64,000 nucleotides of DNA from the NCBI RefSeq assembly GCF_017811155.1, contig NZ_JACVCV010000005.1, forward strand, positions 124,001 to 188,000, in the 5' to 3' direction. Below the pieces are notes generated by a model that was given only the letters and a program-made list of their open reading frames with translations, ran no database searches and had not been told where the DNA came from. The stretch comes from Lunatimonas salinarum. Its GTDB lineage: Bacteria; Bacteroidota; Bacteroidia; Cytophagales; Cyclobacteriaceae. The stretch's first letter is position 1. Each line of letters opens with the position of its first letter. Shown here piece by piece: positions 6,154 to 55,848 of this stretch. The translations under genes were made by a program, and so were the position numbers.

Positions 6154-6230
6154 AAACTTGGCGCAGATATTGTGCTGACGCTGATAAATCATAGCGAAAC
6201 CAATTGGAATCACCCCATACCACACTACCC

Positions 6231-35552: not shown

Positions 35553-38500
35553 GTGTTGACCGATAAATGCGCAAATATTTTTTCGGAATCTAGATCTATC
35601 TTCCCTTCTTCCAGAACGCTTTTTCTGTGGGTTATCATTTTATTGTCCATGCTGAGCGGCCCGGCAGCAGCGTTTCAGACTCCTACAGATAGCCTGCCCA
35701 GTAAGGTTGACTCCCTTGAAAAAAGACGATCACTCCCTTCCTTTCTACTTTGGGACAACCTGAATACCACACCGTTGTTTCCCTATCAGGCTCCATTTAG
35801 GAATCGGCAGTCTCCGTTTGAGTTTCCGGCTCCGATGCAGCGTATCTATGAAGTAGAGATCGACTCAGTACTACGATACACTATTTACGAAGGATTAGAC
35901 TCCACCCAGGTAGACCCCAATTACTCGGTCGATTTCGGTTCGTTCTCCAAAATGGAGGAATTGAGACTGAGGCAAGAATACTGGAGAAACCGTTCCAGAG
36001 GCATGGACGGCGAAAGCGCTGTGGGCGGCAGGGGGTTGATTCCACCGATCACGATGAGTCCTACTTTTGACAGGATATTTGGAGGCAATGAAATCACCAT
36101 CGTACCTACTGGGAACGTCAACCTCGACTTTGGGGGCATCTTCCGACGGATAGACAATCCCTCTATTCCCGTACGCCAGCAACGAAACGGCGGATTTAAT
36201 TTCAACCAACAAATACAAATGAGCGTAAACGGCATGTTGGGACAAAAGGTACGGGTGGGGGCAAACTTTGACAGCAACAATTCGTTTGATTTCGAAAACC
36301 AACTAAAGGTAGAATACGCTGGTTTTGAGGAGGATATCATAAAAAGTATAGAGATCGGTAACGTGAGTATGCCTATCCAAAACAGCCTCATACAGGGCGC
36401 TACCAACCTGTTTGGCGTAAAAACCCAGATGCAATTTGGCAAGCTGTTCATGACTACGGTGGCATCCACCCAGCGGGGCAGAAGAGACGAAATCATCATT
36501 GAAGGCGGTAATCAGGGCCGTCCATTCGAAATACGTGGATCCAATTACGATGAGAATCGCCACTTTTTTTTAAGCCACTTCTTTCGGGACAACTACGAGA
36601 ACTGGCTGAGAGGACTTCCCCAGGTACTCTCGGGTGTACAGATCACCCGGGTGGAAGTATACATCATGAACCGTGCAAACAACACCGAAACGCTTCGGAA
36701 TTTTGCCGCTTTTATGGACTTGGGAGAGGGGCAGCGGATTTTCCGTCCCGATAATCCAAACATTGGGCCCGGCACACCGCAAGCCCCTGCCGCGAACAAT
36801 TCCAACAACCTTTTTACTTCGCTGCGAAACAACCCCTCCTTCCGGTCATTTGAAGAAGCCTCAAGCGCGATCTCCAATGAACTGGGTCTAGAGCGGGGCA
36901 TAGATTTTGAACAGGTAAACGGGGCCAGAAAGCTGGCGTCCAACGAATACACTTTTCACCGGGAATTGGGGTATTTTTCGCTTTTCCGGAAGCTGCAGAA
37001 CGATGAAATCGTAGCGGTATCTTATGAATACACCTATAACGGTCAATCATATAAAGTCGGAGAACTTTCGGAAGATTACCAAAACAGACCCGAAAATGAA
37101 GTCATTTTTCTCAAGTTACTACGACCAGCCCGAATAAATACACAGGTGCCTACTTGGGATCTGATGATGAAAAACATCTATAACCTAAATGCCAACCAAA
37201 TCAAACGGGAAGGCTTTCAATTACAAATCATCTACCGGGATGACCGTACCGGATTGGATAACCCAAGCCTCCTAGAAGGTCAGAATGTAAGGGATATCCC
37301 ACTTATTCGTCTCCTGGGCCTGGATCGGTTAAACCCGCAAAATGATCCTGTACCGGATGGAAACTTCGATTTTGTGTCGGGACTGACCGTACGTCCGGAA
37401 CAGGGGCTGGTCATTTTCCCTTCTTTGGAGCCCTTTGGCCGGGCCATTGCCCAAAACTTCCTTCCCGCCGAAGCCAACCTTGCTCAGAAATACGTTTTTG
37501 ACACACTCTACCGGACTACACTGGCCGATGCTGAGCTGGTGACCCGATTAAACAAATACTTCATCAAAGGTAGTTTCACCTCTGGATCCGCTTCGGAAAT
37601 CATGTTGCCGGGCTTAAACATCTCCGAAGGATCCGTGCTGGTAACGGCAGGTAATATTCCTTTGACAGAAGGAGTCGATTTTACGGTGGATTACAATATC
37701 GGCAGGGTCGTGATCATCAATGAAGGCATATTGCAATCCGGTAAACGCATCAGCATCAGTTTCGAAAAGGCAGACCTGGTTTCTTTCCAAACCAGGAGCA
37801 TGCTGGGCACCCGATTTGATTACCTATTTAACGAAAACTTTAATTTGGGGGGTACTTTTTTATATTTGAACGAACGGCCAAATATATCCCGGATAGCCAC
37901 CGGAAACGAAACACTTAGGAACAGCCTTTGGGGATTGGACATGAACTACAGCGACGAATCCCTATTTCTGACGAAATTGGCCGATGCACTCCCATTTACT
38001 GAGACAAAAGAAAAATCACTCATTACCTTCAATGGTGAATTTGCCCATTTGATACCAGGCACCTCGAATAAGGTAGACGGAGAGGGCGCTTCGTACATAG
38101 ACGATTTTGAAACGGCCATAATCCCATTTAATCTCGGGTCCTCACCACAAAACTGGAGACTGGCAGCTACTCCCGCCACGAATGACAACCGGTTTGATCT
38201 TTCCATGCAAACTGAAGACCGACTGGGCAACGCCTATCGTAGGGCCAAGTTGTCCTGGTATGTATTAGACAATGTGTTTTTCAGGGCTTCGGGCAGAAGC
38301 ACCCCTCCAAATATCAGTTCGGAAGACCGTCGAAACCATTACGTGCGAGGGGTTTTCCCTCAAGAGATCTTCAGAGGGCGTTACCGGGATGTGTTGGTAC
38401 CACCGGAACCTTTGTTCGATTTAGCGTATTTCCCACATGAACGGGGCATGTACAACTATAACCCAAACCTGACAAATGGCGGGCTCCTGCCCAATCCACG

Positions 38501-41500
38501 CCAAAATTACGGAGGAGTAACACGGGCCATCACCTCGGAGGTGGACTTTGACCGAACCAATATCGAATACATCGAATTTTGGCTGATGGATCCCTTTCTA
38601 CAGGGAGAATACGGAAGGGTATTGGATGGGATTTTTAATGAAAACAACACCACAGGAGGCAAGCTTTTCTTTAACTTGGGAGAAGTATCCGAAGATGTGA
38701 TGAAAGATGGTAGGCATGCCTTCGAAAACGGCCTTCCCGTAGACGGATCGCTCGATCGGGTGTCTGAAAACGAATGGGGCAGGGTTACTACCCAACAGTT
38801 TTTGACCCCAGCATTTGACAACTCGCCAGAAGCCCGACAAAACCAAGATGTGGGGATGGATGGCTTAGGGAATGCAGTAGAGCGAGACTACTTTGCCGAC
38901 CGCTTCCTCAATCGTTTAAATGTAAATCCTCAATCCCTACAGCAAATCCAAGCTGACCCCTCTGCGGATGACTTCCGGTATTACTTGGATCCCGAGTACG
39001 ACCAAAACGATGTAAAAATCCTCGAACGGTACAAAAAATTCAACGGTGTGGAAGGAAATACACCGATCACGTCAAACTCCAACCTCCCCTACACTCCCTC
39101 AGGCTCCAATATTCCAGACAATGAAGATCTGAACAATGACAACACCATCAACGAACTGGAAAGCTACTACGAATACGAATTAGACTTGAGACCTGCAACA
39201 ATGCGGGTAGGCCAAGGCCATATCGTGGATCAAATCACCCACATCGATGAAAACTCCGGGGATGAAGTAAACTGGTATTTATTCCGGATACCCGTGAGAC
39301 AGCCGGACCGAAACTTCGGGAATATTTCCGGTTTCAAATCCATACGTTTTATGCGTACGTACCTGACTGACTTTGAGCAGCCGGTGGTCTTGCGAATGGC
39401 CAACTTCCGCTTAGTAGGCAGTCAGTGGAGGATCTTTCAGGAATCTCTGTTTGAGAGGGGATTTTCAGAAATTCCCGAACCTGACAACTCAAATTTCACC
39501 GTTGGAGTCGTAAATATCGAAGAAAATGGTCAAGGCAGTGAAAACCAAAGTCCCTACGTACTCCCCCCGGGAATTTTTAGGGACCGAGACAATACTTCCA
39601 CTGTGGAGAGACAACTAAATGAACAATCCCTCCGATTATGTGTGGACAATTTACAAAGTCGGGATTCCCGGGCGGTGTTTAAAAATGTCAACGAAGACCT
39701 GGTACAATATGGCAGGCTGAAGATGTTTCTACATGCAAGTAGCCAAGACGCACAGAACGGCGAGCTTACGGCATTTTTAAGGCTGGGAACCGACTATACA
39801 GATAATTACTATGAAATTGAGGTTCCGCTAATGCTTACGCCTCCGTCCACGCGAAATCCCAGGGACATTTGGCCTTTAGAGAACGAAATTGACATCGCTT
39901 TCGATGAAATCGTAGGCGTGAAGGCAGACCGAGACATCAATCAACGACCCCAAAACCTCGCTTATTCGGTTCAGATACGACAGTACAAAGTTACCGTAGT
40001 GGGTAGGCCGGAACTTAGTTTTATCCAAGGAATGATGATTGGCGTGCGCAATCCCGGTATGTCCGGTGGGGCTAGCAAATCCGTCTGTATTTGGGCAAAT
40101 GAACTGCGGGTAACAGACTTCAACAAATCTTCCGGCTGGGCCGCGAACGCCCGATTAAACATGCAGATAGCCGATGTAGCCGTAATTTCGTCATCCATTC
40201 GGCATAATACGTTCGGCTTTGGCGGGCTGGAAACCAGGCTGTCCCAGCGGGCAAGAGAATCCACCACCCAATACGATGTTTCCGCAAACGTGAACGTAGA
40301 CAGGCTATTGCCAAAAGCCCTTGGAGTCAGTATTCCGATGTATGTGAGCGTAGAAAACTCGAGTACGAAGCCTGAATTTGACCCTCTCAACCCCGATGTT
40401 CCGTTTGAGGTGGCACTACAGAAATTCAATACAGGCGCAGAGAGGGAGAATTACCGAAATCAGGTAATGGACCAATCCCAGCGACGAAACTTCAGCGTGA
40501 CCAATGTGCGGAAAGTACGTAATCCGGAAAAGGAAACCAACCGAATTTATGACTTGGAGAACTTTTCCGTCTCTTATGCCTATGGGTTGGTAAAGCAAAG
40601 TAATATTCAATTAGCAGACTATACCTTTGAGAGTTACAGGGGAAGTGCCGCATACAATTTCCAACCAGACCCATTGTTGGTTGAACCCTTTAAAAATATG
40701 GAATTCCTGAGCGGGAATTACCTCCAATTGATCAAAGACATCAATTTTAACTTTGCTCCGTCCCTGGTATCAGCAAGGATTGACATAGACCGGCGGTTTA
40801 TGAGAACCCAGAATCGCAACGATCGATTGACCACCGAAGGAGTAGAAACCCTCTTTCAAAAAAGCTTTTTCGTCAACCGCTTTTATAGTTTAAACTGGGA
40901 TTTGACCAAAAACCTATCAGTTGATTTCAACTCTGCCATAAACGCTATCGTCGATGAACCAGAGGGTGATTTGGATACTGAGGCAAAATTGGATTCCTTG
41001 CGTTTTAACCTCCGTAGGCTTGGAAGAACCACCAACTATACCCATCAAGGTGTGGTAAATTACTCCATTCCCCTCGATAAGCTGCCTCTAACCGATTGGA
41101 TCAAAGCCGACCTCCGTTATGAGGCCAGCTACGGGTGGGTAACAGGGGCAATTGGCCAGCGGGATACCTTGGGAAACACCATTCAAAATACCCGTGACCG
41201 CTCTATAAACGGAAAACTGGATTTTATATCCTTATATAACAAAAGTAAAAAGCTAAATGCGTTAAATGCTCCCAAGCGTCCTACCATTCCCGGTAGGCCA
41301 AACGCGCCAAATACCAATTCAACTGCGTCAGCACCAAGCAACGAGGGCTTTGGAAATTCGTTGCTGAAATTCATGATGATGGTCAAAGAAATTAATTTTA
41401 GCTATCAAATAACTGAGGGAACCTTTCTTCCCGGTTACATGCAAAACACTGGACTTCTTGGAATGGATAAAAGCTTCATGAATCCCGGCTTACCTTTTGT

Positions 41501-42713
41501 ATTTGGCAGTCAAAACGATCAGATTCGCTTCGACCTCGCCAATCGGGGTATGCTTGCATCCAGCACACAATTGACTCAGGGCTTCCGGCAAAATAAGACC
41601 GAAAACCTACAAATAAGCTCGTTAGTAGAACCAATTCGTGATTTTAGGATTACCTTAGAAGTTAGAAAACGCCAAACGGGCGACTACAGCGAGATTTTCC
41701 GAAAAGCAAACCCACTCACAGAAGATTTTGTCTCGATTAACCCCAACAGAATGGGAGCCTATAGCATCAGTTATAACCTGATACGAACGGCTAGGTCGAG
41801 AAGTGATGCACAGAATAACTCTCCCCTATTCCAGAATTTTGAAGCATATAGAAGTACCATACAGCAACGACTTGAAAGCCAAAACCTAGGAGGAACCTAT
41901 AACATCAATGGGCAAGACGTGCTGATACCGGCCTTCTTGGCAGCTTACTCAGGCCAGGCACCCGAATCCATTTCATTGAACCCATTCCCACGGATCCCAC
42001 TACCCAATTGGCGTTTGGACTATAGGGGGCTGTCAAAAATACCTGCATTGAGTGAATATTTTTCGTCCATCAACCTCACCCACAATTACGCCTCCGCGTA
42101 CGAGGTAAGCAACTTCTCCAACTCACTTCTCTACCAAGATGGATTGGAACTATATAATCAGTTGCAAAATATTCCAAATGCTACTTTGCTAGATGAATTT
42201 GGTGCCTATATTCCCATTTTCATACTCAATCAAGTGGTGGTTTGGGAGCGGTTTGCGCCCTTGATCGGCGTAGACTTACTCACAAAAGACCGGATGAACA
42301 TCAGTTTTGAATACAATACCGAGAGAAATTTGGGGTTGAATTTTTCAAACGCCCAGGTCACCGAACAAAAAAGCCAGGATTTTAGGTTTGATCTCGGATA
42401 TACGAAAGCCGGGGTCAAAGTGCCCTTTAAAATCCAAGGACGTCAGGAAGTATTGAGCAACGACCTTACCTTCCGGCTTTCCACAAGGATCGTAGACACA
42501 CGGACGATACAACGTAAGATCGAAGAAATAAATACGCTGACAAACGGAAACCTCAACGTAAATCTGAGACCAAGTATCGGCTACGTAGTAAACCAAAAGT
42601 TGAACATTCAATTTTATTTCGACCGTACTATCAACGACCCCAAGGTTTCAACTGCCTTCCGCCGCAGTTCTACCGCATTTGGAGGTCAACTTACATTTAA
42701 TTTAAGCCAATAA
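35553..42713 (+). CDS. sprA: SprA/Sov, outer-membrane translocon of the type IX secretion system
   Basis: A giant protein of 2,386 residues, close to F. johnsoniae SprA. It forms the very large beta-barrel pore of T9SS. A signal peptide lies at about 20-42 (ILLSMLSGPAAAFQ). Family-typical N-terminal sequences include MEELRLRQEYWRNRSRGM, and TGNVNLDFGGIFRRIDNPS. The remainder is beta-strand-rich, with the barrel end AFGGQLTFNLSQ closing the chain. I use GTG at 35553 (TTG at 35556 is equally possible); the first ATG lies inside the signal peptide. It starts 9 bases after ruvA and has no visible terminator. PorV and PorU partners are encoded at 51353-55848. Confidence 0.96.
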   Translation: MLTDKCANIFSESRSIFPSSRTLFLWVIILLSMLSGPAAAFQTPTDSLPSKVDSLEKRRSLPSFLLWDNLNTTPLFPYQAPFRNRQSPFEFPAPMQRIYEVEIDSVLRYTIYEGLDSTQVDPNYSVDFGSFSKMEELRLRQEYWRNRSRGMDGESAVGGRGLIPPITMSPTFDRIFGGNEITIVPTGNVNLDFGGIFRRIDNPSIPVRQQRNGGFNFNQQIQMSVNGMLGQKVRVGANFDSNNSFDFENQLKVEYAGFEEDIIKSIEIGNVSMPIQNSLIQGATNLFGVKTQMQFGKLFMTTVASTQRGRRDEIIIEGGNQGRPFEIRGSNYDENRHFFLSHFFRDNYENWLRGLPQVLSGVQITRVEVYIMNRANNTETLRNFAAFMDLGEGQRIFRPDNPNIGPGTPQAPAANNSNNLFTSLRNNPSFRSFEEASSAISNELGLERGIDFEQVNGARKLASNEYTFHRELGYFSLFRKLQNDEIVAVSYEYTYNGQSYKVGELSEDYQNRPENEVIFLKLLRPARINTQVPTWDLMMKNIYNLNANQIKREGFQLQIIYRDDRTGLDNPSLLEGQNVRDIPLIRLLGLDRLNPQNDPVPDGNFDFVSGLTVRPEQGLVIFPSLEPFGRAIAQNFLPAEANLAQKYVFDTLYRTTLADAELVTRLNKYFIKGSFTSGSASEIMLPGLNISEGSVLVTAGNIPLTEGVDFTVDYNIGRVVIINEGILQSGKRISISFEKADLVSFQTRSMLGTRFDYLFNENFNLGGTFLYLNERPNISRIATGNETLRNSLWGLDMNYSDESLFLTKLADALPFTETKEKSLITFNGEFAHLIPGTSNKVDGEGASYIDDFETAIIPFNLGSSPQNWRLAATPATNDNRFDLSMQTEDRLGNAYRRAKLSWYVLDNVFFRASGRSTPPNISSEDRRNHYVRGVFPQEIFRGRYRDVLVPPEPLFDLAYFPHERGMYNYNPNLTNGGLLPNPRQNYGGVTRAITSEVDFDRTNIEYIEFWLMDPFLQGEYGRVLDGIFNENNTTGGKLFFNLGEVSEDVMKDGRHAFENGLPVDGSLDRVSENEWGRVTTQQFLTPAFDNSPEARQNQDVGMDGLGNAVERDYFADRFLNRLNVNPQSLQQIQADPSADDFRYYLDPEYDQNDVKILERYKKFNGVEGNTPITSNSNLPYTPSGSNIPDNEDLNNDNTINELESYYEYELDLRPATMRVGQGHIVDQITHIDENSGDEVNWYLFRIPVRQPDRNFGNISGFKSIRFMRTYLTDFEQPVVLRMANFRLVGSQWRIFQESLFERGFSEIPEPDNSNFTVGVVNIEENGQGSENQSPYVLPPGIFRDRDNTSTVERQLNEQSLRLCVDNLQSRDSRAVFKNVNEDLVQYGRLKMFLHASSQDAQNGELTAFLRLGTDYTDNYYEIEVPLMLTPPSTRNPRDIWPLENEIDIAFDEIVGVKADRDINQRPQNLAYSVQIRQYKVTVVGRPELSFIQGMMIGVRNPGMSGGASKSVCIWANELRVTDFNKSSGWAANARLNMQIADVAVISSSIRHNTFGFGGLETRLSQRARESTTQYDVSANVNVDRLLPKALGVSIPMYVSVENSSTKPEFDPLNPDVPFEVALQKFNTGAERENYRNQVMDQSQRRNFSVTNVRKVRNPEKETNRIYDLENFSVSYAYGLVKQSNIQLADYTFESYRGSAAYNFQPDPLLVEPFKNMEFLSGNYLQLIKDINFNFAPSLVSARIDIDRRFMRTQNRNDRLTTEGVETLFQKSFFVNRFYSLNWDLTKNLSVDFNSAINAIVDEPEGDLDTEAKLDSLRFNLRRLGRTTNYTHQGVVNYSIPLDKLPLTDWIKADLRYEASYGWVTGAIGQRDTLGNTIQNTRDRSINGKLDFISLYNKSKKLNALNAPKRPTIPGRPNAPNTNSTASAPSNEGFGNSLLKFMMMVKEINFSYQITEGTFLPGYMQNTGLLGMDKSFMNPGLPFVFGSQNDQIRFDLANRGMLASSTQLTQGFRQNKTENLQISSLVEPIRDFRITLEVRKRQTGDYSEIFRKANPLTEDFVSINPNRMGAYSISYNLIRTARSRSDAQNNSPLFQNFEAYRSTIQQRLESQNLGGTYNINGQDVLIPAFLAAYSGQAPESISLNPFPRIPLPNWRLDYRGLSKIPALSEYFSSINLTHNYASAYEVSNFSNSLLYQDGLELYNQLQNIPNATLLDEFGAYIPIFILNQVVVWERFAPLIGVDLLTKDRMNISFEYNTERNLGLNFSNAQVTEQKSQDFRFDLGYTKAGVKVPFKIQGRQEVLSNDLTFRLSTRIVDTRTIQRKIEEINTLTNGNLNVNLRPSIGYVVNQKLNIQFYFDRTINDPKVSTAFRRSSTAFGGQLTFNLSQ

Positions 42714-44472: not shown

Positions 44473-45351
44473 CTAAAGGATGTTTAGCACTTGCTCCTTA
44501 ATTTTCTCTAGCTCATCTTTCATCTGAATAACTGTCTGCTGAATCGCTACGTCATTTGCCTTCGAACCAATCGTGTTGATCTCCCGGCCTATCTCCTGAC
44601 CGATGAATCCCAATTTTTTACCTTGGGCTTCTTCCGATTGAATCACCTTGGTGAAGTACTTCAGGTGCGTCTCCAACCGGACGATTTCTTCGGTAATATC
44701 CAGCTTCTCAAAATAATAAATAAGCTCTTGCTCAAACCGATTTTGATCAAAACTACTCTCATCCAACCATTCTGAAAAATGGTTTCTTATTTTGTCTTTG
44801 ATACGGGACTTGCGAATGGGTTCTTCTATCCGAATTTTTTCCAATCCTTCCTTCAAGACCTCCATGTTTTCTTCGAACTTACCAAAAAGCGATGCGCCTT
44901 CTTGCAGTCTAAACTCATCACAATGCTGTAATGCCCTTTCTACCACTGACAAAACGAGGTTCCAATCAGTTACACCTTTTGGAGTTTCTGTATGGTTGGA
45001 AAGCACATTGGGCGATTGCAGTACAAGCCTAAAAAGATCATCTGTATTCAACCCTGATTGCCCAGCTAGCTCTTTAAATTCACGTACATACGCCTGAAAG
45101 AGGCCTTGGTTAATGGATACCGGCAGCTGATCATAGTCTTTTTCAGTTACCTCGATGATAAGGGAAACCTTCCCTCTCACCAACTTTTCAGAGACCAGTT
45201 TCCTAACCTCCAGCTCCCTTTCTGCATATTGCTTGGGGAACTTTAGCGAAAGGTCCAAAAATTTGGAATTTAACGTTTTAACCTCAACCTGTATTCTAGA
45301 TTGATCGTTTTCGAAATCGGCTATGCCATAACCGGTCATGGATTTAATCAT
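44473..45351 (-). CDS. yicC: YicC-family endoribonuclease
   Basis: A 292-residue protein of the YicC/YloC family. The start MIKSMTGYG and the C-terminal KKLGFIGQEIGREINTIGSKAND are the signature ends. E. coli YicC is an RNase acting on small RNAs; activity here is inferred from the family. It lies 17 bases after the mosaic outer-membrane protein gene on the minus strand and is the last of three linked genes. The 198 bases between tonB and yicC hold only the terminator. Confidence 0.93.
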   Translation of the reverse strand: MIKSMTGYGIADFENDQSRIQVEVKTLNSKFLDLSLKFPKQYAERELEVRKLVSEKLVRGKVSLIIEVTEKDYDQLPVSINQGLFQAYVREFKELAGQSGLNTDDLFRLVLQSPNVLSNHTETPKGVTDWNLVLSVVERALQHCDEFRLQEGASLFGKFEENMEVLKEGLEKIRIEEPIRKSRIKDKIRNHFSEWLDESSFDQNRFEQELIYYFEKLDITEEIVRLETHLKYFTKVIQSEEAQGKKLGFIGQEIGREINTIGSKANDVAIQQTVIQMKDELEKIKEQVLNIL

Positions 45352-45368
45352 CCCGCAATATACAGCCG

Positions 45369-48300
45369 TTAAAAATTGTATCCTAGAGTGACGTAAAATC
45401 TCATTTTTTCTACATCGTAGTTACGTATCGGCCTAGCCGCATCAAACTTTACATAATAATTCAACAGCACTGTCCTCAAGCCTGCCCCGTAACTTTGAAG
45501 CCAAGGGTTATTAAAATTATTTAGCGTAATCACAAATGGTGACCCTTCCGTGCGAATAACTTCCGTATTTTGGTCGTTGATTCGCTCCCATGGTGCCGCG
45601 TTGTTCCATGAGGACCCTGCATCGTAAAACCCGACAAGCTGAAAGTTACGGATAAAATTGGAGGTTATATTGCCCCTGGAGAGGTAAGCAAACAGCGGGA
45701 TACGTAATTCTGAGGTGAAGGTGATCACGTTCCTACCCCTTATCTCATCGTAGTCGTAGCCCCGCAAGTCAACAAACTCTGTGAAAAGGATGTTGGAATT
45801 TTCCACGCCTTGTGCATTTCGCACCGGGGATATCTCTGGTCTATTACTTGGAGGCTGATGAAACTGATTGAAGAGCCAGTTATCCATCCCTCCGACGAGG
45901 TACTGTTGAGGATTATTTCCGAAGAAACTACCCCCAAATACCCTCATGGCCAAGGTAATGTTTTTGTGAATTTTTTGGTAGTTGCGCAGATCTACGAAGG
46001 CATTGCTAAACGAGCGCTGATTATTCGAAAGCCCCTGATAGTGGGTCACACCAATCTTTCCTTTGAAGCCTTGCTCCATATAAAGCCCTAACAACCTGGT
46101 TTTATCCACAACAAACTCCGCTCTTCCCCCTGCGTAGTTCACATCGAACCGGTTTTGCCTTTCGTCTGTACCCCGCAAGATCGAGTCAGGATTCAAATTA
46201 AAATACTGAGTCTTCGCCACAAAAGGACTCAATGTGAAGCGTGTTCCTACTGAGAATGGGTAGGAAATTCCCAATTCGGTCTTAGTGAGCACATACTTTT
46301 GTGCGGTAAGATCGCCCTCACTGCGATTGATTGCCCGTCTATCAAACCTGCCTCGAAGGTCTATCCTACTCTTCAAATATTCGTATTCAAAAAAGACATC
46401 GCTACCAGAACGAAAATCCAACGCAGTCATGATGCCTCCCCTGACCGAGTGATTGTCTAGCAGATCACTCATTTTTCCATGTAAATTAATCGCAAACCCC
46501 CTCAATGGATCCACCTCAAAGTTGGTATTTAAACTAGTGGTAGCGAACAGGGGAGTATAAGTACTAGGACCTGTAACCCGCTTAACCATTGATTGCTGCC
46601 TAAATGCCTCCAATATATTACTTCTACCGACTGCGCCGGGCTGTTGTTGCGGTGGCTGCTGCGCTTGCTGCTGAAGTGTGCTACCTGGAGGAATTGTATC
46701 AAAGGTGTAGTCGTCGGTATTTATTCCTCCCTCTCGTTCGAAACGCAGCCTATCCAGACTAATCGCTCCCGTCGCAGGCTGAGGTGTAGAAGGCAAGGTG
46801 TCTGCAGATACGGATGGTTGATTCATTGCAGCGGATGCTGCAGACACTCTAGCAGAATTGGGAAGGGGGGGTGAAGTTGTGCCGGAATCAGGACGTGGAG
46901 CCCCTCCAATCAAAAGACTTTCTAGGTCGACTCCACCCACGATGGTTGTATCCGCCACCACTTGGCCATCATCCGTACGTCGCTGTGCCCTATCGATTAA
47001 TGAAGGTGCCGATTCGGAAGACTCCTCAATACGATCGGACTCACCGCCTTCTTCCTCTGCTTCCCGTTGGATACGACGTGAGGAAATGCGCTCGTTCAAT
47101 TCTTTTGCTTGTTGTATTTGCAGCCGGGGCGTGCTGGGGGTGAATTGATCCAGATTGGGAAAATTCTCCAAAACCAACCGGCTTTGATTACCATCTCTTA
47201 CCGCATAGGCCCATTTATTGGCTCGCAAGGAATAGTCGAAAGTTTCCACACTACGGTTAAAGGCGGAAACCTGACTACTCACCATATTTCCTAAGCCAAA
47301 CCGCATGATGTTCATTATCCCGCTCTGCTCGCTCAAATGAAGTACCGTAGTATTGTTTAGCTTCCTCGGCATTATATTTATATGATTTACGTTGGTCAAC
47401 TTGGTATGGACCAACGTATCATTCCCGGTTTCCAGCATAAAAATATTATAATAATCGGGCAGGTTGTTTACATCGATATTCCCCGTTAATAGGCTGTCTG
47501 GAAGTTCTGCTTTATTGGACGCGTATATTATGGTAGAGTCGTTTAAAAAGACCGGGGTTCTGTTGTCAAACACATCGTTGGTGATTCGCCGACCTTGTCC
47601 CCGCATGTTGAGTGTGTAGATATCTGTCTTACCGTTTGAAATGGCGGAAATGACCATGGCACGCCCACTAGGAGAAAAATCCAAATCGAGGATCTGCGTT
47701 AGGTTACGCAAGAATATTTTATCCTGGGAACTTCCATCAATGGCACGCATACGGATAGTGGTGACCCCTCGCTTGAAGCCTGCCAAAACTAAGTTCAACG
47801 TATCACGCCAAGCGATCGCAGGTGTCGTAAAATCTGCCTCCTGATCGAAAGAGGAGTACCCTCCTTTAAAAATAATCCGCTCCCGGCTATTGGAAAGATC
47901 GCGGATGATAACACGAAACTTCCCACCGTTATTTAACACGTAGGCCAAGTTTTTGCCGTCAGGGCTAAATTTGACAGAGGTAATGGACCCGTATTTATTA
48001 TTGGAGGTAGAGGCTATTTCGTTGTTCTTATTAACCTCTTTAAAGGTATCCAACACCTGTTTATTCAAACTCGTATAGAAGGAGCTCCATTCTGTCTGAA
48101 AATCTTTGAAGCGCCTGCCTAGGGTATTCGCAATACTGTTTTCCTCGTTTCGATTGATCCGGCTTAGATTAAGGATACTGGATATGTACCTCCGCCCAAA
48201 GCGCTCTACGATAAAATTCCAAATAGACTGTCCTACTAGTGCCGCTTCCTGTGGGTTTAGCTTATGCAGTTTTGGATTTTCATTGCCATTCAGGTAATGT

Positions 48301-48881
48301 CTAACAAAGTCATCCATCTCCATATCCCACCCGTAAGCCATGTACCTTGCCGCCCCGTCAATGAACCAATCCGGAAAATTATTGATCAGATTAGATTGGA
48401 ACGCGTCACTGATGCTGGAGCCATACAGCATTTCCTCCATGATGATTTTAGAGGTTTGGTACAGCAATTCCTTTTTAAAGGATTCCCAAGAGCCGGTAAA
48501 AGGGACTTCAGCCAATAATTTGGAGAAAAAGGTTTGCCCATCAATGGTATAGTTGTTTTTATTGATGTTAAGATTGCTCTCCAAGAGCTCCTGACTGGAG
48601 TTGTAAATAAAAATTTTTGGCTTCGTGTATGCTACGTAGCCGATTGTCTGCGTAAGGCGGTCAAATTCCCCTTCCAAAAAGTCTATTGCATAACGAGCAT
48701 TGGTAATGCCTCCGTCGTAAAAATAGACTTCGAAGTTGTTTGAACTGAAGTGGTACCACTCCTTATTCTTATGCTGAACCCGGTTCTTTCCAAAACGTTC
48801 CTGATCGAACTGTGCGTTGGCCAAATGAAGGTTACCAACCACGAAAATGACAATAAACAGGAGTAGAAATCTAACGCTCAT
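45369..48881 (-). CDS. Mosaic outer-membrane protein: peptidase-like, TolB-like propeller and BamA-like barrel
   Basis: A 1,170-residue exported protein with a signal peptide (1-23, ending LANAQ). An N-terminal part (about 30-270) resembles the peptidase MA fold, but the HExxH zinc motif is replaced around TSKIIMEEMLYG, so it is probably not an active protease. Next is a beta-propeller with PD40-type units (about 290-590, SVKFSPDGKNLAYVL, then DLDFSPSGRAMVIS). A low-complexity linker rich in Gln, Pro and Ser (about 600-770) leads to a C-terminal Omp85-like barrel (about 780-1170, RGYDYDEIRGRNVITFTSELRIPLF and GFYDAGSSW). It may insert in or help assemble the outer membrane. It sits between the FAD oxidoreductase and yicC on the same strand. 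Confidence 0.82.
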   Translation of the reverse strand: MSVRFLLLFIVIFVVGNLHLANAQFDQERFGKNRVQHKNKEWYHFSSNNFEVYFYDGGITNARYAIDFLEGEFDRLTQTIGYVAYTKPKIFIYNSSQELLESNLNINKNNYTIDGQTFFSKLLAEVPFTGSWESFKKELLYQTSKIIMEEMLYGSSISDAFQSNLINNFPDWFIDGAARYMAYGWDMEMDDFVRHYLNGNENPKLHKLNPQEAALVGQSIWNFIVERFGRRYISSILNLSRINRNEENSIANTLGRRFKDFQTEWSSFYTSLNKQVLDTFKEVNKNNEIASTSNNKYGSITSVKFSPDGKNLAYVLNNGGKFRVIIRDLSNSRERIIFKGGYSSFDQEADFTTPAIAWRDTLNLVLAGFKRGVTTIRMRAIDGSSQDKIFLRNLTQILDLDFSPSGRAMVISAISNGKTDIYTLNMRGQGRRITNDVFDNRTPVFLNDSTIIYASNKAELPDSLLTGNIDVNNLPDYYNIFMLETGNDTLVHTKLTNVNHINIMPRKLNNTTVLHLSEQSGIMNIMRFGLGNMVSSQVSAFNRSVETFDYSLRANKWAYAVRDGNQSRLVLENFPNLDQFTPSTPRLQIQQAKELNERISSRRIQREAEEEGGESDRIEESSESAPSLIDRAQRRTDDGQVVADTTIVGGVDLESLLIGGAPRPDSGTTSPPLPNSARVSAASAAMNQPSVSADTLPSTPQPATGAISLDRLRFEREGGINTDDYTFDTIPPGSTLQQQAQQPPQQQPGAVGRSNILEAFRQQSMVKRVTGPSTYTPLFATTSLNTNFEVDPLRGFAINLHGKMSDLLDNHSVRGGIMTALDFRSGSDVFFEYEYLKSRIDLRGRFDRRAINRSEGDLTAQKYVLTKTELGISYPFSVGTRFTLSPFVAKTQYFNLNPDSILRGTDERQNRFDVNYAGGRAEFVVDKTRLLGLYMEQGFKGKIGVTHYQGLSNNQRSFSNAFVDLRNYQKIHKNITLAMRVFGGSFFGNNPQQYLVGGMDNWLFNQFHQPPSNRPEISPVRNAQGVENSNILFTEFVDLRGYDYDEIRGRNVITFTSELRIPLFAYLSRGNITSNFIRNFQLVGFYDAGSSWNNAAPWERINDQNTEVIRTEGSPFVITLNNFNNPWLQSYGAGLRTVLLNYYVKFDAARPIRNYDVEKMRFYVTLGYNF

Positions 48882-48910: not shown

Positions 48911-49963
48911 TTAAATATACTTAAAAAATCGATTTATGTTCACCTCTTTTGCAGGTTCCTTGCTAAAAGTTAACAAATTACTCATTTCTCGACTCAAATA
49001 AGGTGCCATAGAAACGCCCTTTGCCCCAAGCCCATTAAATATATATACCTGATTATAAGCAGGATGCCGTCCTAAAAATGGCTTTCGGTCTTTGGTCGCA
49101 GGCCGTATGCCCCAATCATGCCGTAGAATGGTTGGCCAGGGCAGATTTATCAGTGACTGCAATTTTTCCAGCAATTCGACCTTTCCCTTTTCCGTAGAAC
49201 CAGATTCCAAATCTTGATTATCGTAAGTAGACCCAACCCGGTGAACGCCTTCCTCTAAAGTAATTCGAAACACTCCCCGGTTAATAATTTCTTCCGGAGA
49301 AAAGGATTGTTCCACAGTCAATATTTCTCCCCGAACCGGACGAAAGGGCAGCCAGGCAAAGTACTTGCTTTTCAAGGCCTCCAGGCCATTGGTGTAAACA
49401 ACCGCTTTGGCTTCAATCCCATTGTAGGAAATGCCATCTGAATGCAGGATCAGCTTTGTTTCGTCAAAAAGCTCCTGCGTGAGCAAGCCCTCATTTTGCA
49501 GCCAATGACTATACGCATCCAGCAACTTTGGAATATTTAAGTAACCGCAGTGGGCAAGCACCACGCCTCCATAAGGGTCACTGACTACGTCATATTTCGA
49601 TGCAGTGCGTATTTCAAGTAGGTAACGGCTAAAACTCATCCGGCTACTATTTCCCATCCACTCGTTTTGCTCCTCAACATTTAAAAATGGCCTGTAAATG
49701 GGTCTAGGTTCCAAAAAACGCTGACCCAACCGCTCTTCCAAACTCCGGTAGAAGGGTTCAATTTCCGGAAAATGCAAATCTGCCGCCCAGGTCTTGACCA
49801 TCTTCCTTCCGGTAATTGGGTTGTAAAGACCGGCGGCTACCCGGGAACTCATATGCATGCCAGGCATATCCACCAAATGCACACGGTGTCCCCCAGCCAT
49901 TAACCTCCAAGACAGCACTGTTCCAGCCAAACCTTGACCAATTAGTAAAAAATCAGTTTTCAT
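48911..49963 (-). CDS. FAD-dependent oxidoreductase of the D-amino acid oxidase family
   Basis: From ATG 49963 the protein has 350 residues. The dinucleotide-binding motif LLIGQGLAGTVLSWRL lies at the N-terminus, then SSRVAAGLYNPITGRKMV (in outline) and the C-terminal Rossmann closure IFNGLGAKGVSMAPYLS. The DAO-type fold oxidises amines or amino acids; the similarity to the second half of MnmC is general and no tRNA role is shown. The substrate is unknown. TTG at 49969 is rejected as start. It is the first gene of a three-gene minus-strand operon, 29 bases before the mosaic barrel gene. Confidence 0.87.
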   Translation of the reverse strand: MKTDFLLIGQGLAGTVLSWRLMAGGHRVHLVDMPGMHMSSRVAAGLYNPITGRKMVKTWAADLHFPEIEPFYRSLEERLGQRFLEPRPIYRPFLNVEEQNEWMGNSSRMSFSRYLLEIRTASKYDVVSDPYGGVVLAHCGYLNIPKLLDAYSHWLQNEGLLTQELFDETKLILHSDGISYNGIEAKAVVYTNGLEALKSKYFAWLPFRPVRGEILTVEQSFSPEEIINRGVFRITLEEGVHRVGSTYDNQDLESGSTEKGKVELLEKLQSLINLPWPTILRHDWGIRPATKDRKPFLGRHPAYNQVYIFNGLGAKGVSMAPYLSREMSNLLTFSKEPAKEVNINRFFKYI

Positions 49964-50017
49964 ACCCAAAATTAAATCATTATTCGTTATTTTGAATTAA
50001 AATTAATCCATTTGCAC

Positions 50018-50668: not shown

Positions 50669-51369
50669 AGGTGAAAAAGCACATTCCCAACCTGATCACT
50701 TGCCTTAACCTCTGCAGCGGCATGGCTGGTATTTACGTTGTATTGGAAGGCCGATTACTGTGGGGAGCCTATTTCGTCATGGCCGCCGCAGTTTTCGACT
50801 TTCTGGATGGGTTTGTCGCAAAATTGCTCAAAGCCCATAGCGAGATAGGCAAACAATTGGATTCCCTGGCAGATATGGTCACTTTTGGGGTGTTACCGGC
50901 ATTCATCGCCTTCAAACTGCTCCAAAGTGGTGGTCAGTTGGAATACCTCCCCTACCTCTCATTTCTTATTGGCATACAATCCGCTCTTCGGCTGGCTAAG
51001 TTTAACATCGATGAGCGACAAAGTGAGCGCTTTATTGGCTTGCCTACCCCAGCTAACGCCTTGTTTTTTAGCACACTACCTCATTTAGCTATGGCGATCC
51101 CTGAGCTTGGTAGACTGCTCCTCCACCCCATCCTAATAGGCCTGTTAGTTGTGCTATTTGCTTTTCTGCTGACCGCGGAACTTCCACTATTGGCCTTGAA
51201 GTTTAAAACATTTTCTGTCAAAAAGAACTTCTCAAAATATCTATTGCTGGCCATTGGATTGGTCGTTTTGGTGATTTTGGGTACTGCCGGAGTTCCCTTT
51301 ATTGTGGTGACTTACCTCCTCCTATCATTGGTTGAAAACCTGCTGACTAAACATGCTGTCCAAACCTAA
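50665..51369 (+). CDS. pssA: CDP-diacylglycerol-serine O-phosphatidyltransferase
   Basis: A 234-residue membrane enzyme that makes phosphatidylserine, the precursor of phosphatidylethanolamine. About seven hydrophobic segments surround the CDP-alcohol phosphotransferase motif DFLDGFVAKLLKA then GKQLDSLADMVTFGV, where the usual Arg after Ala is Lys. The start is either TTG 50665, overlapping the hydrolase stop, or GTG 50671. It overlaps porU by 17 bases, so lipid synthesis and secretion genes share a transcript. The serine substrate is assigned by family. Confidence 0.92.
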   Translation: MKVKKHIPNLITCLNLCSGMAGIYVVLEGRLLWGAYFVMAAAVFDFLDGFVAKLLKAHSEIGKQLDSLADMVTFGVLPAFIAFKLLQSGGQLEYLPYLSFLIGIQSALRLAKFNIDERQSERFIGLPTPANALFFSTLPHLAMAIPELGRLLLHPILIGLLVVLFAFLLTAELPLLALKFKTFSVKKNFSKYLLLAIGLVVLVILGTAGVPFIVVTYLLLSLVENLLTKHAVQT

Positions 51370-54300
51370 CATATGGAACTCACTAGCCACGCTTACCATT
51401 TGGATAATTGCTGTCGGAACCTTACCTGCGCAAGCATTTTTGGTAACCACCGAAACAGAAGGAATATATAAAATCACCCAAACAAAAGCCCAAACCTTAG
51501 GGCTTGGAGAACTTGAAAATATCAGCCTATTTGGGTTGGCCGGCATGCTTCCTCAGCGGTTGGATTCTGGTGCATGGAACATGCAGGAGCTCCCGGGACA
51601 GCTGATCGATGGCACCCTCTATTTTTTCCTTCCCGGGCCGGACACCTTCATCTGGGAGGAAAACTACCCAAGTTTTCAAGTCAATCATTACACAGAAAGG
51701 CAACACTTTATTCTAAAGGGAAATACTCCTTCCCCAAAACGGATCCAAAACCTTAACCCAAGTGAACCTACTCCTGACGATGATAACAACTCCTCCCCGT
51801 GGTATGCAATGGAAAGCTACCATGAACCAACCTACAACCTACTTCAATCGGGCCGAGATTGGTATGGGCATCGAATGTTCTCAGGGCAGCAGACTATCCT
51901 TACGGTAGACGTTCCCTCTGCGTTTGACTCACGACAAGAAGTGCTTTTCTCTGCCACCCTGCTCGCACAATCCATCGCAGACAGCAAGTTTACCACCTCA
52001 TTAAACGGGCAACTTATCAAAGAATCAGCGTTCCCATCGATTCCAAACAGCACTTATGGAATAAAAGGACGGGAGGGGGCCTTCACCGAACAACGTCAAA
52101 TCAATACCTCAGAACGGCTGGAGGTGCAGTTTGACTTCTATACAGCAGACCGCAACGGTGCAGGCTATTTAAAACACTTATGGATAGGCTATCCCGTAAA
52201 CCCTTCCTTAATGGATAACCACGTCCTCTATCGACCGCCAAACACCGCAAAAAATACCACTTTTGAGGCACCTGAAAACCGACAGGCTTGGTCCCTTGCC
52301 CCCAAAACGCAGAAAATCGCAAATGGTAGCCTTCTCCCAGCTGAAGTATCCAAAATTGCTTTTTTTGACCCCCGATCAGTCCCAGAAATGACAATCTCCA
52401 GACCAATGGACCTCTCCCTGCGCGAAAACACATTCTTTCCGGAATTATGGATCGTGACCGCCCCACACTTTATGCCAGAGGCCAACCGTTTGGCTTCATT
52501 CAAAAGCAGTTCGGGCATATCAGCCAAAGCCGTATCCATCGATGCCGTATACGATGCCTTCGGATATGGAAATCCCGACCCAAGTGCGTTACGAAACTTC
52601 TTGGCCTATCAATACCATGAGGGAAAATCCCTGCAAAACGTTCTGCTATTGGGAAAGGGCACTTTTGATTTCAAAAATATCCTTGAGGGCGAACCTAACT
52701 TAGTACCAACCTACAGTTCCAGAAATAGCCTCAATCCACTCACAACTTACAGTTCGGACGATTATTTTGGCTTCCTATCCTTTGGAGACGGTGAATGGGA
52801 AGAATCGAACTCCGGAGATCACCTGCTATCTATAGGAGTTGGAAGGATTCCTGCCATAAGTTTATCCGATGCCAAACATGCCATTGACAAAATTATTCAA
52901 TACAGCACCCGGGAGGGTCATGAAGGAGATTGGAAACGCAAGCTACTGTTGATTGCGGACGACGGAGACAACAATATCCACCTAACCGATGCCGAAGCCC
53001 ACGCAACTTTTCTCTTCAACAACCACCCGGAATTTATCGTTGATAAACTGTATTTAGACCGCTTTGAACAAGTCAATACAGGGAGCTCACAAGCATCCCC
53101 CGCGGCGCGTACCTATTTGAAAGAATGGCTCCGAGAATCCGGATTAGTAATCAACTACATTGGCCATGGAAATGAAACCACCTTGGCTGCGGAAGGGTTA
53201 TTTCGGGTAGCCGATATTGCTGAAATGCCAGCATCCAACCGCCTGCCTGTGTTTGTAACAGCCACCTGTGAATTTGGCCGACACGACAGCCCTTTGGTTC
53301 AAAGCGCCGCCGAAATGCTGCTTTTGACTCCTGAAAAAGGGGCCATTGCCCTGCTGACTACCGGGCGTCCAGTTTTCAGCAGTGTGAACTTCTTACTTAA
53401 CAGGGCGTTCATAGAGCATCTATTTGCCCGCCCCTATGGAGAATCACTTTCCTTGGGAGAAATCTTTCGACTGACGAAGAACAATAGCCTAAGCGGTTCG
53501 CTAAATCGAAATTTTTCGCTACTGGGAGATCCTTCCCTGAAGCTTTCACTTCCTGAATACCGGATCGGAGACCTCGAGCTACGCGATGGCCTGACGGAAA
53601 TGGAAGTAGATACTATACAGGCGATGCAGCGGATTCATTTTCGCGGTTCCGTATCCGACCCACTCTCCGGAGCCATCCCTGCGGGGTTTAATGGGACATT
53701 TGATATCCGTATATTGGACAAACCATTGACCTTAAAAACGCTCGGTGACGAAAGTCCGTCTGTGGAGTTTTTCGAAAACCGTGCCCTTTTGCACAAGGGA
53801 GTGGGAACGATTAAGGATGGGAATTTTGAAGGAAGCTTCTTTGTAGGTAAGAATATCGACTACCGCATTGGAGATGGAAGCATCCAACTGTTTGGCCTTG
53901 ATTCAGCTTCCGGCGGGGAAATGATTGGCGCCCTTCGGGTGAAAATAGGCGGCACCTATACAGAGACTCCGGAAGATACCCAAGGGCCGCAAGTCGCCAT
54001 CAATTACAACAGCCCAAACTTGTCGCCAAACGGGCAGCTATCCTCCACACAGGTTCAGCTCACCGTTTTCTTTGAAGATCCTTCCGGAATAAACATTTCA
54101 CCCATAAATCTGGGGCAGGATATCACCCTGCGGCTAAACGATCAGGATCCAGTGGTTTTAAACCACCTCTTTCGCTCATTAGATTCCGGATTTGAACGAG
54201 GAAAATTGCTGATGGAAGTATCCGGCCTCAAATCAGGAATAAACCAGTTGGTTATTACCGCCTTTGACAACCTAGGCAACCGTACGGCTAAGGATTTTAG

Positions 54301-54634
54301 GGTAGATGTGACTGGCATCGAATCAATCAAAATTTTAGCTGTAGCCAACTACCCAAACCCGGCTTCACTGGAAACCTCCTTTCGGTTTAGGCATAATCGG
54401 CCGGGGGAAACGGTTGGTGTTACGTTGCGGATCTTTTCGATTGACGGTCGTGAAATATTTTCTACGGAAAGACGTTTTGAAAACGCTGGTGAAAACATCA
54501 GCGGTCTTGATTGGATATTTTCAGAGGGCAACGCTGTATTTCCCATAAAAGGACCGTATATTTATCATTTAAAACTCTCATCTGAGCAGGACGGCAGTTC
54601 CGACCAGATAGGAGGAAAATTATTGATTAAATGA
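51353..54634 (+). CDS. porU: T9SS sortase PorU (C25 peptidase family)
   Basis: A 1,093-residue surface protein that removes the C-terminal sorting signal from T9SS cargo and transfers it to anionic lipopolysaccharide. After a signal peptide (about 1-28) comes a long beta-rich N-terminal region, then a gingipain-like C25 catalytic core (about 360-720). The catalytic pair is present: His605 in NYIGHGNET and Cys639 in TATCEFGRHDSP. Ig-like parts follow, and the C-terminus has a T9SS-type tail (YPNPASLETSFRF then IKGPYIYHLKLS). It is encoded between pssA and porV with overlaps at both ends (17 and 4 bases). Confidence 0.95.
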   Translation: MLSKPNIWNSLATLTIWIIAVGTLPAQAFLVTTETEGIYKITQTKAQTLGLGELENISLFGLAGMLPQRLDSGAWNMQELPGQLIDGTLYFFLPGPDTFIWEENYPSFQVNHYTERQHFILKGNTPSPKRIQNLNPSEPTPDDDNNSSPWYAMESYHEPTYNLLQSGRDWYGHRMFSGQQTILTVDVPSAFDSRQEVLFSATLLAQSIADSKFTTSLNGQLIKESAFPSIPNSTYGIKGREGAFTEQRQINTSERLEVQFDFYTADRNGAGYLKHLWIGYPVNPSLMDNHVLYRPPNTAKNTTFEAPENRQAWSLAPKTQKIANGSLLPAEVSKIAFFDPRSVPEMTISRPMDLSLRENTFFPELWIVTAPHFMPEANRLASFKSSSGISAKAVSIDAVYDAFGYGNPDPSALRNFLAYQYHEGKSLQNVLLLGKGTFDFKNILEGEPNLVPTYSSRNSLNPLTTYSSDDYFGFLSFGDGEWEESNSGDHLLSIGVGRIPAISLSDAKHAIDKIIQYSTREGHEGDWKRKLLLIADDGDNNIHLTDAEAHATFLFNNHPEFIVDKLYLDRFEQVNTGSSQASPAARTYLKEWLRESGLVINYIGHGNETTLAAEGLFRVADIAEMPASNRLPVFVTATCEFGRHDSPLVQSAAEMLLLTPEKGAIALLTTGRPVFSSVNFLLNRAFIEHLFARPYGESLSLGEIFRLTKNNSLSGSLNRNFSLLGDPSLKLSLPEYRIGDLELRDGLTEMEVDTIQAMQRIHFRGSVSDPLSGAIPAGFNGTFDIRILDKPLTLKTLGDESPSVEFFENRALLHKGVGTIKDGNFEGSFFVGKNIDYRIGDGSIQLFGLDSASGGEMIGALRVKIGGTYTETPEDTQGPQVAINYNSPNLSPNGQLSSTQVQLTVFFEDPSGINISPINLGQDITLRLNDQDPVVLNHLFRSLDSGFERGKLLMEVSGLKSGINQLVITAFDNLGNRTAKDFRVDVTGIESIKILAVANYPNPASLETSFRFRHNRPGETVGVTLRIFSIDGREIFSTERRFENAGENISGLDWIFSEGNAVFPIKGPYIYHLKLSSEQDGSSDQIGGKLLIK

Positions 54635-55848
54635 AGATCAGAAAACCTATTTACGCGCTAACTTTTTTAGCACTGGTTTTTATGGCACCGTATTACGCGG
54701 CCGCCCAAAACTCTGTAACCCTTTTTGGCCAACAGGATCCAAACAGACGGGTCATCACCACGGCGGTACCCTTTCTGAATTTTGCACCTGACAGCCGACA
54801 TTCCGCTATGGGTGACGTGGGAGTCGCCACCTCACCCGATGCCAATTCAGCCCATTGGAATGCAGCCAAATTAGCCTTTGTCGATACAGATATGGGGTTT
54901 TCCTTGTCCTACTCACCTTGGCTTGGACGATTGGTACCCGATATGTCAGTCAATTACCTCACTGGGTATAAGCGGATTGACAATGTATCCACATTTGGGT
55001 TGGATTTGAGATATTTTGATATGGGTTCTATCCAACTCACCAATGAAAACGGCGATCCGTTAGGTGATTTTAATCCGAGAGATATCGCTATTGGAGGCAC
55101 CTATTCTCGCAAACTTTCCGACAACCTTGCACTGGGAATTTCTGCCCGTTTTATTCATTCCAATCTTTCGGGAAATATATCATCTGCCGGCGGGAATGAG
55201 AGTCGGCCGGGCGTCAGCGTGGGAACGGACATTGGTCTTTACCATCAATCCGACGTCTTGGTATCCGGAAAAGACGCATTGTGGTCCTGGGGGCTGAACA
55301 TTTCAAACATAGGGCCAAAGATCACCTATAACAGTGCCGAAGACCTAGATTACCTGCCGACGAATTTCCGGCTTGGAACCGCATTGAAAATTCCAATGGA
55401 TAATTTTAACAACATCACCTTTGCCTTGGATTTCAATAAGTTGATGGTTCCTACCCCCCCCTTGTATGAACGTAACGCAAACGGTCAGATCGTAAGAGAT
55501 CCCATTACCAATCGGCCAAGCATAGCAGCTGGAAGCGACCCCACCCGCCCGCTATTGAGTGGAATGTTTGGATCTTTTGGAGATGCCCCCGGAGGGTTCA
55601 GAGAGGAGCTTCAAGAAGTGATGATTTCCTTTGGAGTGGCGTACGACTACGACAATAAATTTGCCGTTAGGACCGGGTATTTCTATGAAAACCCCCGAAA
55701 AGGAGGTAGACGGTACTTTACCATGGGTGTTGGCTTTCGAATTGTTGAAGGCCTCGCCTTTGATTTTTCTTATCTGGTACCTCAAACCCAAAACCATCCA
55801 CTGGCAGAAACACTGCGCTTATCGCTCGCTTACAACATCAATAAATAG
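54631..55848 (+). CDS. porV: T9SS outer-membrane shuttle protein PorV
   Basis: A 405-residue FadL-like barrel that receives cargo from the SprA pore and delivers it to PorU. The signal peptide (about 1-26, ending YYAAAQ) is followed by the hallmark TAVPFLNFAPDSRHSAMGDVG and repeated membrane strands up to LSLAYNINK at the C-terminus. The ATG overlaps the porU stop (ATGA), so the two are translationally coupled. SprA is encoded about 12 kb upstream. Confidence 0.95.
   Translation: MKIRKPIYALTFLALVFMAPYYAAAQNSVTLFGQQDPNRRVITTAVPFLNFAPDSRHSAMGDVGVATSPDANSAHWNAAKLAFVDTDMGFSLSYSPWLGRLVPDMSVNYLTGYKRIDNVSTFGLDLRYFDMGSIQLTNENGDPLGDFNPRDIAIGGTYSRKLSDNLALGISARFIHSNLSGNISSAGGNESRPGVSVGTDIGLYHQSDVLVSGKDALWSWGLNISNIGPKITYNSAEDLDYLPTNFRLGTALKIPMDNFNNITFALDFNKLMVPTPPLYERNANGQIVRDPITNRPSIAAGSDPTRPLLSGMFGSFGDAPGGFREELQEVMISFGVAYDYDNKFAVRTGYFYENPRKGGRRYFTMGVGFRIVEGLAFDFSYLVPQTQNHPLAETLRLSLAYNINK

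Follow-up and report, generated by a model that had tools for sequence, protein, structure and literature searches.

Ten subfamilies of Omp85 proteins have been distinguished, one of which, WD40-Omp85, has a propeller whose closest relative is TolB and was likened to a fusion of BamA and BamB (PMC4104836). In the subfamily descriptions of that survey the 'metalloprotease' subfamily carries another domain, PF00149, the subfamilies except BamA, TamA and Lipo show conservation at the genus level, with horizontal transfer suggested, and the conservative guess for such subfamilies is a role in protein assembly (Heinz and Lithgow 2014). An OMP-TolB-like clade, with an outer-membrane barrel and a periplasmic six-bladed TolB-like propeller, is described in PMC12204202 (Mol Biol Evol 2025), where its members are noted as often annotated as TolB and TolB itself is derived from them. 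Outer-membrane biogenesis in Bacteroidota is under revision, as for the β-barrel assembly machinery of Flavobacterium johnsoniae (PMC12611786). In the open-licence PubMed Central literature the name WD40-Omp85 was found in PMC4104836 only, and no function was found assigned to an order-wide Omp85 protein with a propeller and a peptidase fold. Such a protein is encoded in a stretch of 64,000 nucleotides (the window) from Lunatimonas salinarum (Bacteroidota, class Bacteroidia, order Cytophagales; assembly GCF_017811155.1, contig NZ_JACVCV010000005.1, positions 124,001 to 188,000). Judged from sequence and structure model it is a POTRA-less outer-membrane protein of the Omp85 superfamily, of the WD40-Omp85 kind, and it goes beyond these descriptions in its gluzincin module, in the loss of the catalytic site with continued conservation of the domain, and in a motif of the linker.

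Domain architecture of the protein

The gene occupies 45369..48881 on the minus strand (as do all its features below) as a single intact open reading frame of 1170 amino acids with an ATG start. Its translation and an AlphaFold2 model give the order pseudopeptidase, TolB-like propeller, linker and Omp85 barrel, a domain architecture that is near certain. The initial annotation had named the same parts, a degenerate peptidase of the MA type, a TolB-like propeller and a BamA-like barrel with a Gln/Pro-rich linker, and domain searches and the structure model bear out each of them; a barrel is modelled at the C-terminus, and the N-terminal protease site is absent, with YQTSK at the HExxH positions. 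Most relatives keep the gene as one unbroken frame, and on that ground a chance open reading frame, a fusion of frames and an assembly artefact were rejected. In one metagenome bin (L114:5995-9278) the gene is split into two adjacent frames. With the window protein itself as the query, the gene is single copy in its own 5.46-Mb genome, no second copy being found.

The model, calculated from the window protein and 50 relatives (mean predicted local distance difference test score (pLDDT) 73.6, predicted template modelling score 0.65), starts with a hydrophobic helix at the N-terminus, followed by a mixed alpha/beta domain at about residues 36–284, a propeller at about residues 285–575, a linker and a barrel. 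Residues 1–23 (48813..48881), a hydrophobic stretch with the boundary ANA/Q, are read from the translation as a signal peptide, and since no cysteine follows this stretch in the translation of the window protein, read directly, the protein should not be a lipoprotein, unlike TamL. PD40 is the only Pfam family above cut-off on the window protein. Ahead of the barrel the model has the gluzincin fold, the propeller and a disordered linker; POTRA domains are absent from it, and no POTRA model matched the window protein at E≤1.

The barrel, residues 770–1170 (45372..46574) with F as the last residue, is predicted to be a 16-stranded, BamA-like Omp85 barrel by the model, by structure comparison and by the PF01103 matches of some orthologs. 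In the model 16 long strands lie between residues 779 and 1168, and the best matches in VIA-align are BamAs, with Z 25.2 for 8xnb (root-mean-square deviation (rmsd) 4.1 Å, 317 aligned) and Z 24.9 for the BamA of F. johnsoniae, 9n2d (rmsd 3.7 Å, 309 aligned); the Foldseek match to E. coli BamA has an E-value of 1e-11. The motifs of Omp85 proteins are (V/L)RG(F/Y) in loop 6 and a partner D in strand 13. At the place of the former, a long loop that connects strands 11 and 12, conservation and the model put RGY, residues 1040–1042 (45756..45764), and D1087 (45621..45623) is found in strand 13 in an FxDxG-like motif. Across 42 diverse members R1040 and D1087 are invariant and G1041 is kept in at least 90%, and we take the two invariant residues to be the loop-6 arginine of BamA and its acidic partner.

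The TolB-like beta-propeller, residues 285–575 (47157..48029), is supported by Pfam, by sequence matches including TolB, by the AlphaFold2 model and by structure comparison, where VIA-align places it on TolB 1crz with Z 23.2 (rmsd 3.0 Å, 238 aligned). It scores 39 bits against the TolB equivalog cut-off of 343 bits, and the N-terminal domain of TolB (PF04052) has no match on the window protein or in its own genome. Propeller and barrel are joined by the Gln/Pro-rich linker, residues ~606–756 (46614..47066), which is predicted to be disordered, with pLDDT below 50 at residues 610–753, and has the lowest identity of the four parts.

The HExxH site in the protein and its relatives

The N-terminal domain, residues 36–284 (48030..48776), has a gluzincin (peptidase MA) fold without a metal site, according to the fold model, the alignment and the PF13485 matches of orthologs. 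Folded alone it has a pLDDT of 81.1, and its best match is the peptidase unit of a collagenase, 7wss (Z 14.1, rmsd 4.1 Å, 226 aligned). Further matches are M30 and M1 enzymes. By themselves Z values of 11–14 do not settle the fold of a domain that is mostly helical. Chains with Rossmann in the title are not among the 50 matches listed for this domain, a listing that does not exclude a Rossmann fold. Pfam Peptidase_MA_2 (PF13485) does not match the window protein at E≤1; it is above cut-off in all four outside-class orthologs that were scanned and in 4/8 members scanned overall. The outside-class orthologs align with the N-terminal domain of the window protein through the HExxH region, and their HELVH corresponds to YQTSK at residues 141–145 (48447..48461). 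The former third ligand position (xEG) falls by the alignment on residue 175, here D (48357..48359); the Glu at that position is presumably the third zinc ligand.

The site was scored in 103 rows from open reading frames of more than 900 amino acids, a limit that excludes L235 (679 amino acids). HExxH is present in 36, made up of all 28 outside-class rows and all eight class paralogs of 'type 2', and in none of the remaining 67, which are all from the class and include three second fetches of a gene and about ten divergent rows. The outside-class rows were fetched from 28 of 133 matching genomes, about one or two per family; the weak families f28, f42, f46 and f48 are not among them and were sampled separately. 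Residues of the site survive in some of the 67 rows: one still has the first His, four the catalytic Glu, two the second His and 17 the third Glu. HExxH is also missing from all 98 rows of order relatives (some genes are there twice, and L101 is without its N-terminal half), and it is found in 10/10 further outside-class rows of type 2 or a third type.

On the tree of the 103 rows the HExxH state changes once. A single change, with a Shimodaira–Hasegawa-like approximate likelihood ratio of 100, is also seen on a tree of 82 rows with the active-site and linker columns removed, for which 21 of the 103 rows (near-copies and six divergent rows lacking HExxH) were dropped and which carries warnings for long branches meeting and for uneven composition. 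Three changes appear on a tree of 46 rows, where L161 and L299 were scored as lacking HExxH only because the position window missed the motif. The trees are unrooted, and loss is the natural direction of the change since HExxH is common to several groups and to the wider peptidase fold. Paralogs of type 2 with an intact HExxH occur inside and outside the class (L185, L186, L216-L221, L283-L287, L293, L294), and in some genomes they stand beside the dead form; both dead and HExxH forms are held by genomes G075 (L151 and L220) and G014 (L018 and L186). The third HExxH-bearing type (L296, L297 and L298, families f40, f42 and f48) forms a branch of its own.

Mean pairwise identity among the 67 rows lacking HExxH is 31% in the N-terminal domain, 26% in the propeller, 32% in the barrel and 18% in the linker, and among the 28 outside-class rows 54, 43, 42 and 17% respectively. 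The dead domain is thus well kept but no longer above the barrel (31% against 32%, compared with 54% against 42% outside the class). The ratio of nonsynonymous to synonymous substitution of the domain was not usable, the synonymous sites being saturated.

The linker is mostly unalignable, and within it a short pattern approximating [IV][DN]x[DNRK][ND]YxF recurs, a motif that by linker comparison is INTDDYTFD in the window protein, residues 720–728 (46698..46724). The core [ND]YxF is found in 44/67 linkers of rows lacking HExxH (shuffle mean 0.41) and in 15/28 outside-class linkers (shuffle mean 0.39), and in none of the eight type-2 linkers of the class. When the open reading frames of at least 120 amino acids in the window were scanned for the motif, the only match was the window protein itself. 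Barrel proteins bear an aromatic C-terminal signal, and the YxF-type motif resembles it.

The distribution was examined in an order sample of 39 genomes (own included), a phylum sample of 198 genomes and, with a broader profile, 149 genomes of the class. All 39 genomes of the order sample match, 38 of them with the form of the window; the match in G037 is an HExxH-bearing paralog (L185). In the phylum sample 161/198 genomes match at E≤0.001, 27 of them from family f28, and since in the four f28 genomes checked (L288-L291) only a propeller protein of ~440 amino acids without peptidase or barrel matches, support for the fused protein extends to no more than 134 of the 198. With the broader profile 120/149 class genomes match at E≤1e-100, paralogs included, and 29 do not; at E≤0.001 the count rises to 148/149, with other propellers and other Omp85 proteins among the matches. 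Families f18, f19 and f21 have no match in the phylum sample, where few candidates were scored per genome, and match weakly with the broader profile, and the four f16 genomes have the type-2 form only. The propeller-Omp85 protein is therefore widespread and belongs to an Omp85 kind already known, and the description 'unusual mosaic' in the initial annotation does not hold, since fusions of a propeller with an Omp85 barrel have been named as a subfamily (PMC4104836) and the architecture occurs in 38 of the 39 order-sample genomes and in many families of the class.

Proposed function and gene neighbourhood

The function we infer, with a probability of roughly 0.4, is that of a POTRA-less Omp85 scaffold in outer-membrane biogenesis or quality control, in which a former protease would now be a binding module. 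Assembling or anchoring other outer-membrane proteins, as first suggested in the initial annotation, is the leading idea. By analogy with the patatin domain of PlpD the N-terminal domains should face the periplasm, where gluzincin domain and propeller could form a docking platform tethered to the barrel by the long flexible linker. In the ancestral form, which would persist outside the class, a zinc-peptidase platform might cut stalled or misfolded clients, in the manner of BepA but attached to a barrel of its own. The lineage of the window would then have lost the cutting site and retained the domain as a binding module. The linker motif may be a further contact site, and proteins of the TamB type are a candidate partner.

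That the barrel instead exports propeller and pseudopeptidase, placing them on the cell surface as was once proposed for PlpD, is very unlikely. Translocators do exist among Omp85 proteins and the N-terminal modules precede the barrel on a long flexible linker, but POTRA domains to feed the barrel are missing, large folded domains are unfit for a closed 16-stranded barrel, and PlpD itself retains its domain in the periplasm according to PMC11116518.

The propeller might also do the work of TolB in a phylum without the canonical protein, binding Pal or another OmpA-type lipoprotein while anchored by the barrel. TolB is its nearest relative, the N-terminal domain of TolB, absent from the own genome, is present in only 1 of 54 Bacteroidota genomes, and the derivation of TolB from OMP-TolB-like proteins in PMC12204202 fits as well; a replacement of TolB is nonetheless unlikely. 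Among 18 genomes without the main type (4 of f16 and 14 of f18, f19 and f21) 17 also lack the TolB N-terminal domain, so no trade-off with TolB is seen, in a comparison with hardly any variation across genomes. Deletion of tolB (chu_1429) in Cytophaga hutchinsonii, possibly the gene of this same protein, left growth on filter paper normal in the account of PMC5891637, and PMC12204202 assigns the tethering of the outer membrane, as a proposal, to PorE.

The gene lies between a likely co-transcribed upstream gene for a flavin adenine dinucleotide-dependent oxidoreductase of the Pfam family DAO (48911..49969, minus strand) and, 17 bases past its stop, a downstream gene for a YicC-type endoribonuclease (44473..45351, minus strand; domain and sequence matches), each of which has a BLAST match in 76 of 79 loci of order relatives. 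These loci come mostly from one family, with some contigs cut, and in them pssA (phosphatidylserine synthase) is matched in 75, a metallo-hydrolase in 75, PorU in 73 and SprA in 52. Components of the type IX secretion system flank the gene within ~20 kb, with the SprA/Sov translocon at 35553-42713, between RuvA and GcvH, the PorU sortase at 51353-54634 and PorV at 54631-55848. An open reading frame of 1468 amino acids at 6204-10610 of the window has DUF11-type repeats and a match below cut-off to the type B sorting domain of this system.

An accessory role in type IX secretion or in the handling of its substrates is suggested by this position between SprA and PorU/PorV and by the frequency of PorU in the order loci. 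PorU is above cut-off in 35/36 genomes with the main type and 14/18 without it (Fisher p 0.04, kinship not corrected), and the four f16 genomes lack both the main type and an above-cut-off PorU. On the other hand all 14 genomes of f18, f19 and f21 (with few candidates scored per genome) have PorU without the window protein, G045 has the protein without PorU above cut-off, and the identified recurrent neighbours in the 28 outside-class loci include no gene of the system. A secretion role is quite unlikely, and it is, like the replacement of TolB, a weaker rival to the scaffold.

Outside the class RNase R stands at -1 in 9/28 loci and TamB at -2 in 7/28; in two of the 28, L166 and L177, the anchor gene is mis-set. 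ABC ATPases, in 8 loci at mixed positions, and histidine kinases, in 7, are no rarer among these neighbours than TamB with its 7. The order tamB, RNase R, propeller-Omp85 is seen in distant families (L154, L158, L160, L162, L164 and L171). L169 is a rearranged case, with tamB on the opposite strand and RNase R missing, and in G134, where contig ends cut the genes off, the arrangement would be compatible with the same order. A lipid-handling Omp85 that pairs with a bridge of the TamB/AsmA type and balances outer-membrane phospholipid, with protein assembly secondary, would be in keeping with the seven TamB loci and with pssA in the order loci. In a FastTree tree of 46 TamBs (midpoint root; L278 is missing from the neighbour table), moreover, none of the seven lies inside the two groups with an adjoining TamA/TamL-like Omp85. 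Against lipid handling, the own genome has another Omp85, TamL-like, directly adjoining one of its two TamBs (L240, L241), the other being without one; RNase R stands between tamB and the gene in 6 of the 7 cases, and TamB is not seen in 21 of the 28 outside loci. We regard this role as unlikely.

Several observations also weigh against the scaffold reading. The spacing by RNase R and the 21 outside loci without TamB count here too, as does the absence of TamB from 12/12 class loci compared, and the studied partner of TamB in F. johnsoniae is TamL in the account of PMC12045153. Pfam Omp85 (PF01103) does not match the window protein at E≤1, nor the place of the gene in its own genome; it is above cut-off in 2/8 scanned family members, and other members match too. 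As families f18, f19 and f21 match weakly or not, the protein is not indispensable. Going by sequence identity, the dead domain may be partly relaxed, the N-terminal domain being the best-conserved part only in the HExxH form outside the class, and it could be a remnant held just for the stability of the fold.

A more elaborate version of the scaffold, for which we see a slim chance, would be an assembly machine with its own quality-control protease that was converted once into a pseudopeptidase acting as client sensor or chaperone. The YxF motif of the linker would then be a tethered pseudo-substrate gating the protein's own barrel or that of BamA until it is displaced by a client or a TamB-type partner.

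Comparison with known systems

BepA is a soluble, active protease with tetratricopeptide repeats and without propeller or barrel, and TamA and TamL possess POTRA domains. The likeness of the scaffold to BepA, an M48 metallopeptidase, lies in a zinc peptidase that acts on a barrel, LptD, at the assembly machine, in both biogenesis and degradation (PMC8423444). With TamA/TamL and TamB (PMC4494059 and PMC12045153) it shares an Omp85 protein and a possible TamB partner, tamB being near the gene in some outside-class loci; TamL is a lipoprotein, and TamA and TamL are without propeller or peptidase fold. PlpD resembles the window protein in combining an Omp85 barrel with a periplasmic domain of enzyme type, and differs in that the domain is patatin-like and the protein a homodimer (PMC11116518). 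According to the same source members of the superfamily have, as a rule, one POTRA domain or more, and the window protein has none.

The closest described kind is WD40-Omp85, which likewise has a TolB-closest propeller before an Omp85 barrel and no POTRA in the description of PMC4104836. The main text of that paper never uses the word 'peptidase', whereas the window protein has a gluzincin fold, and in contrast to the genus-level picture given there the gene is spread across an order and across many families in the phylum. The OMP-TolB-like proteins are apparently the same kind as the window protein, and the models of PMC12204202 may be of the same proteins, but their adjacent domain is described there as a Rossmann fold, whereas the present family has a gluzincin fold at this place, and many of its members carry HExxH. 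Should the domain be a gluzincin and not a Rossmann fold, the origin of TolB from such proteins through loss of the barrel, as proposed, would have to be reconsidered. The clean split into branches with and without HExxH makes the role of a tethered peptidase, and what remains after its death, addressable by comparing the forms, and the new twist on the known barrel-propeller type is a dead protease part that many related bacteria have retained.

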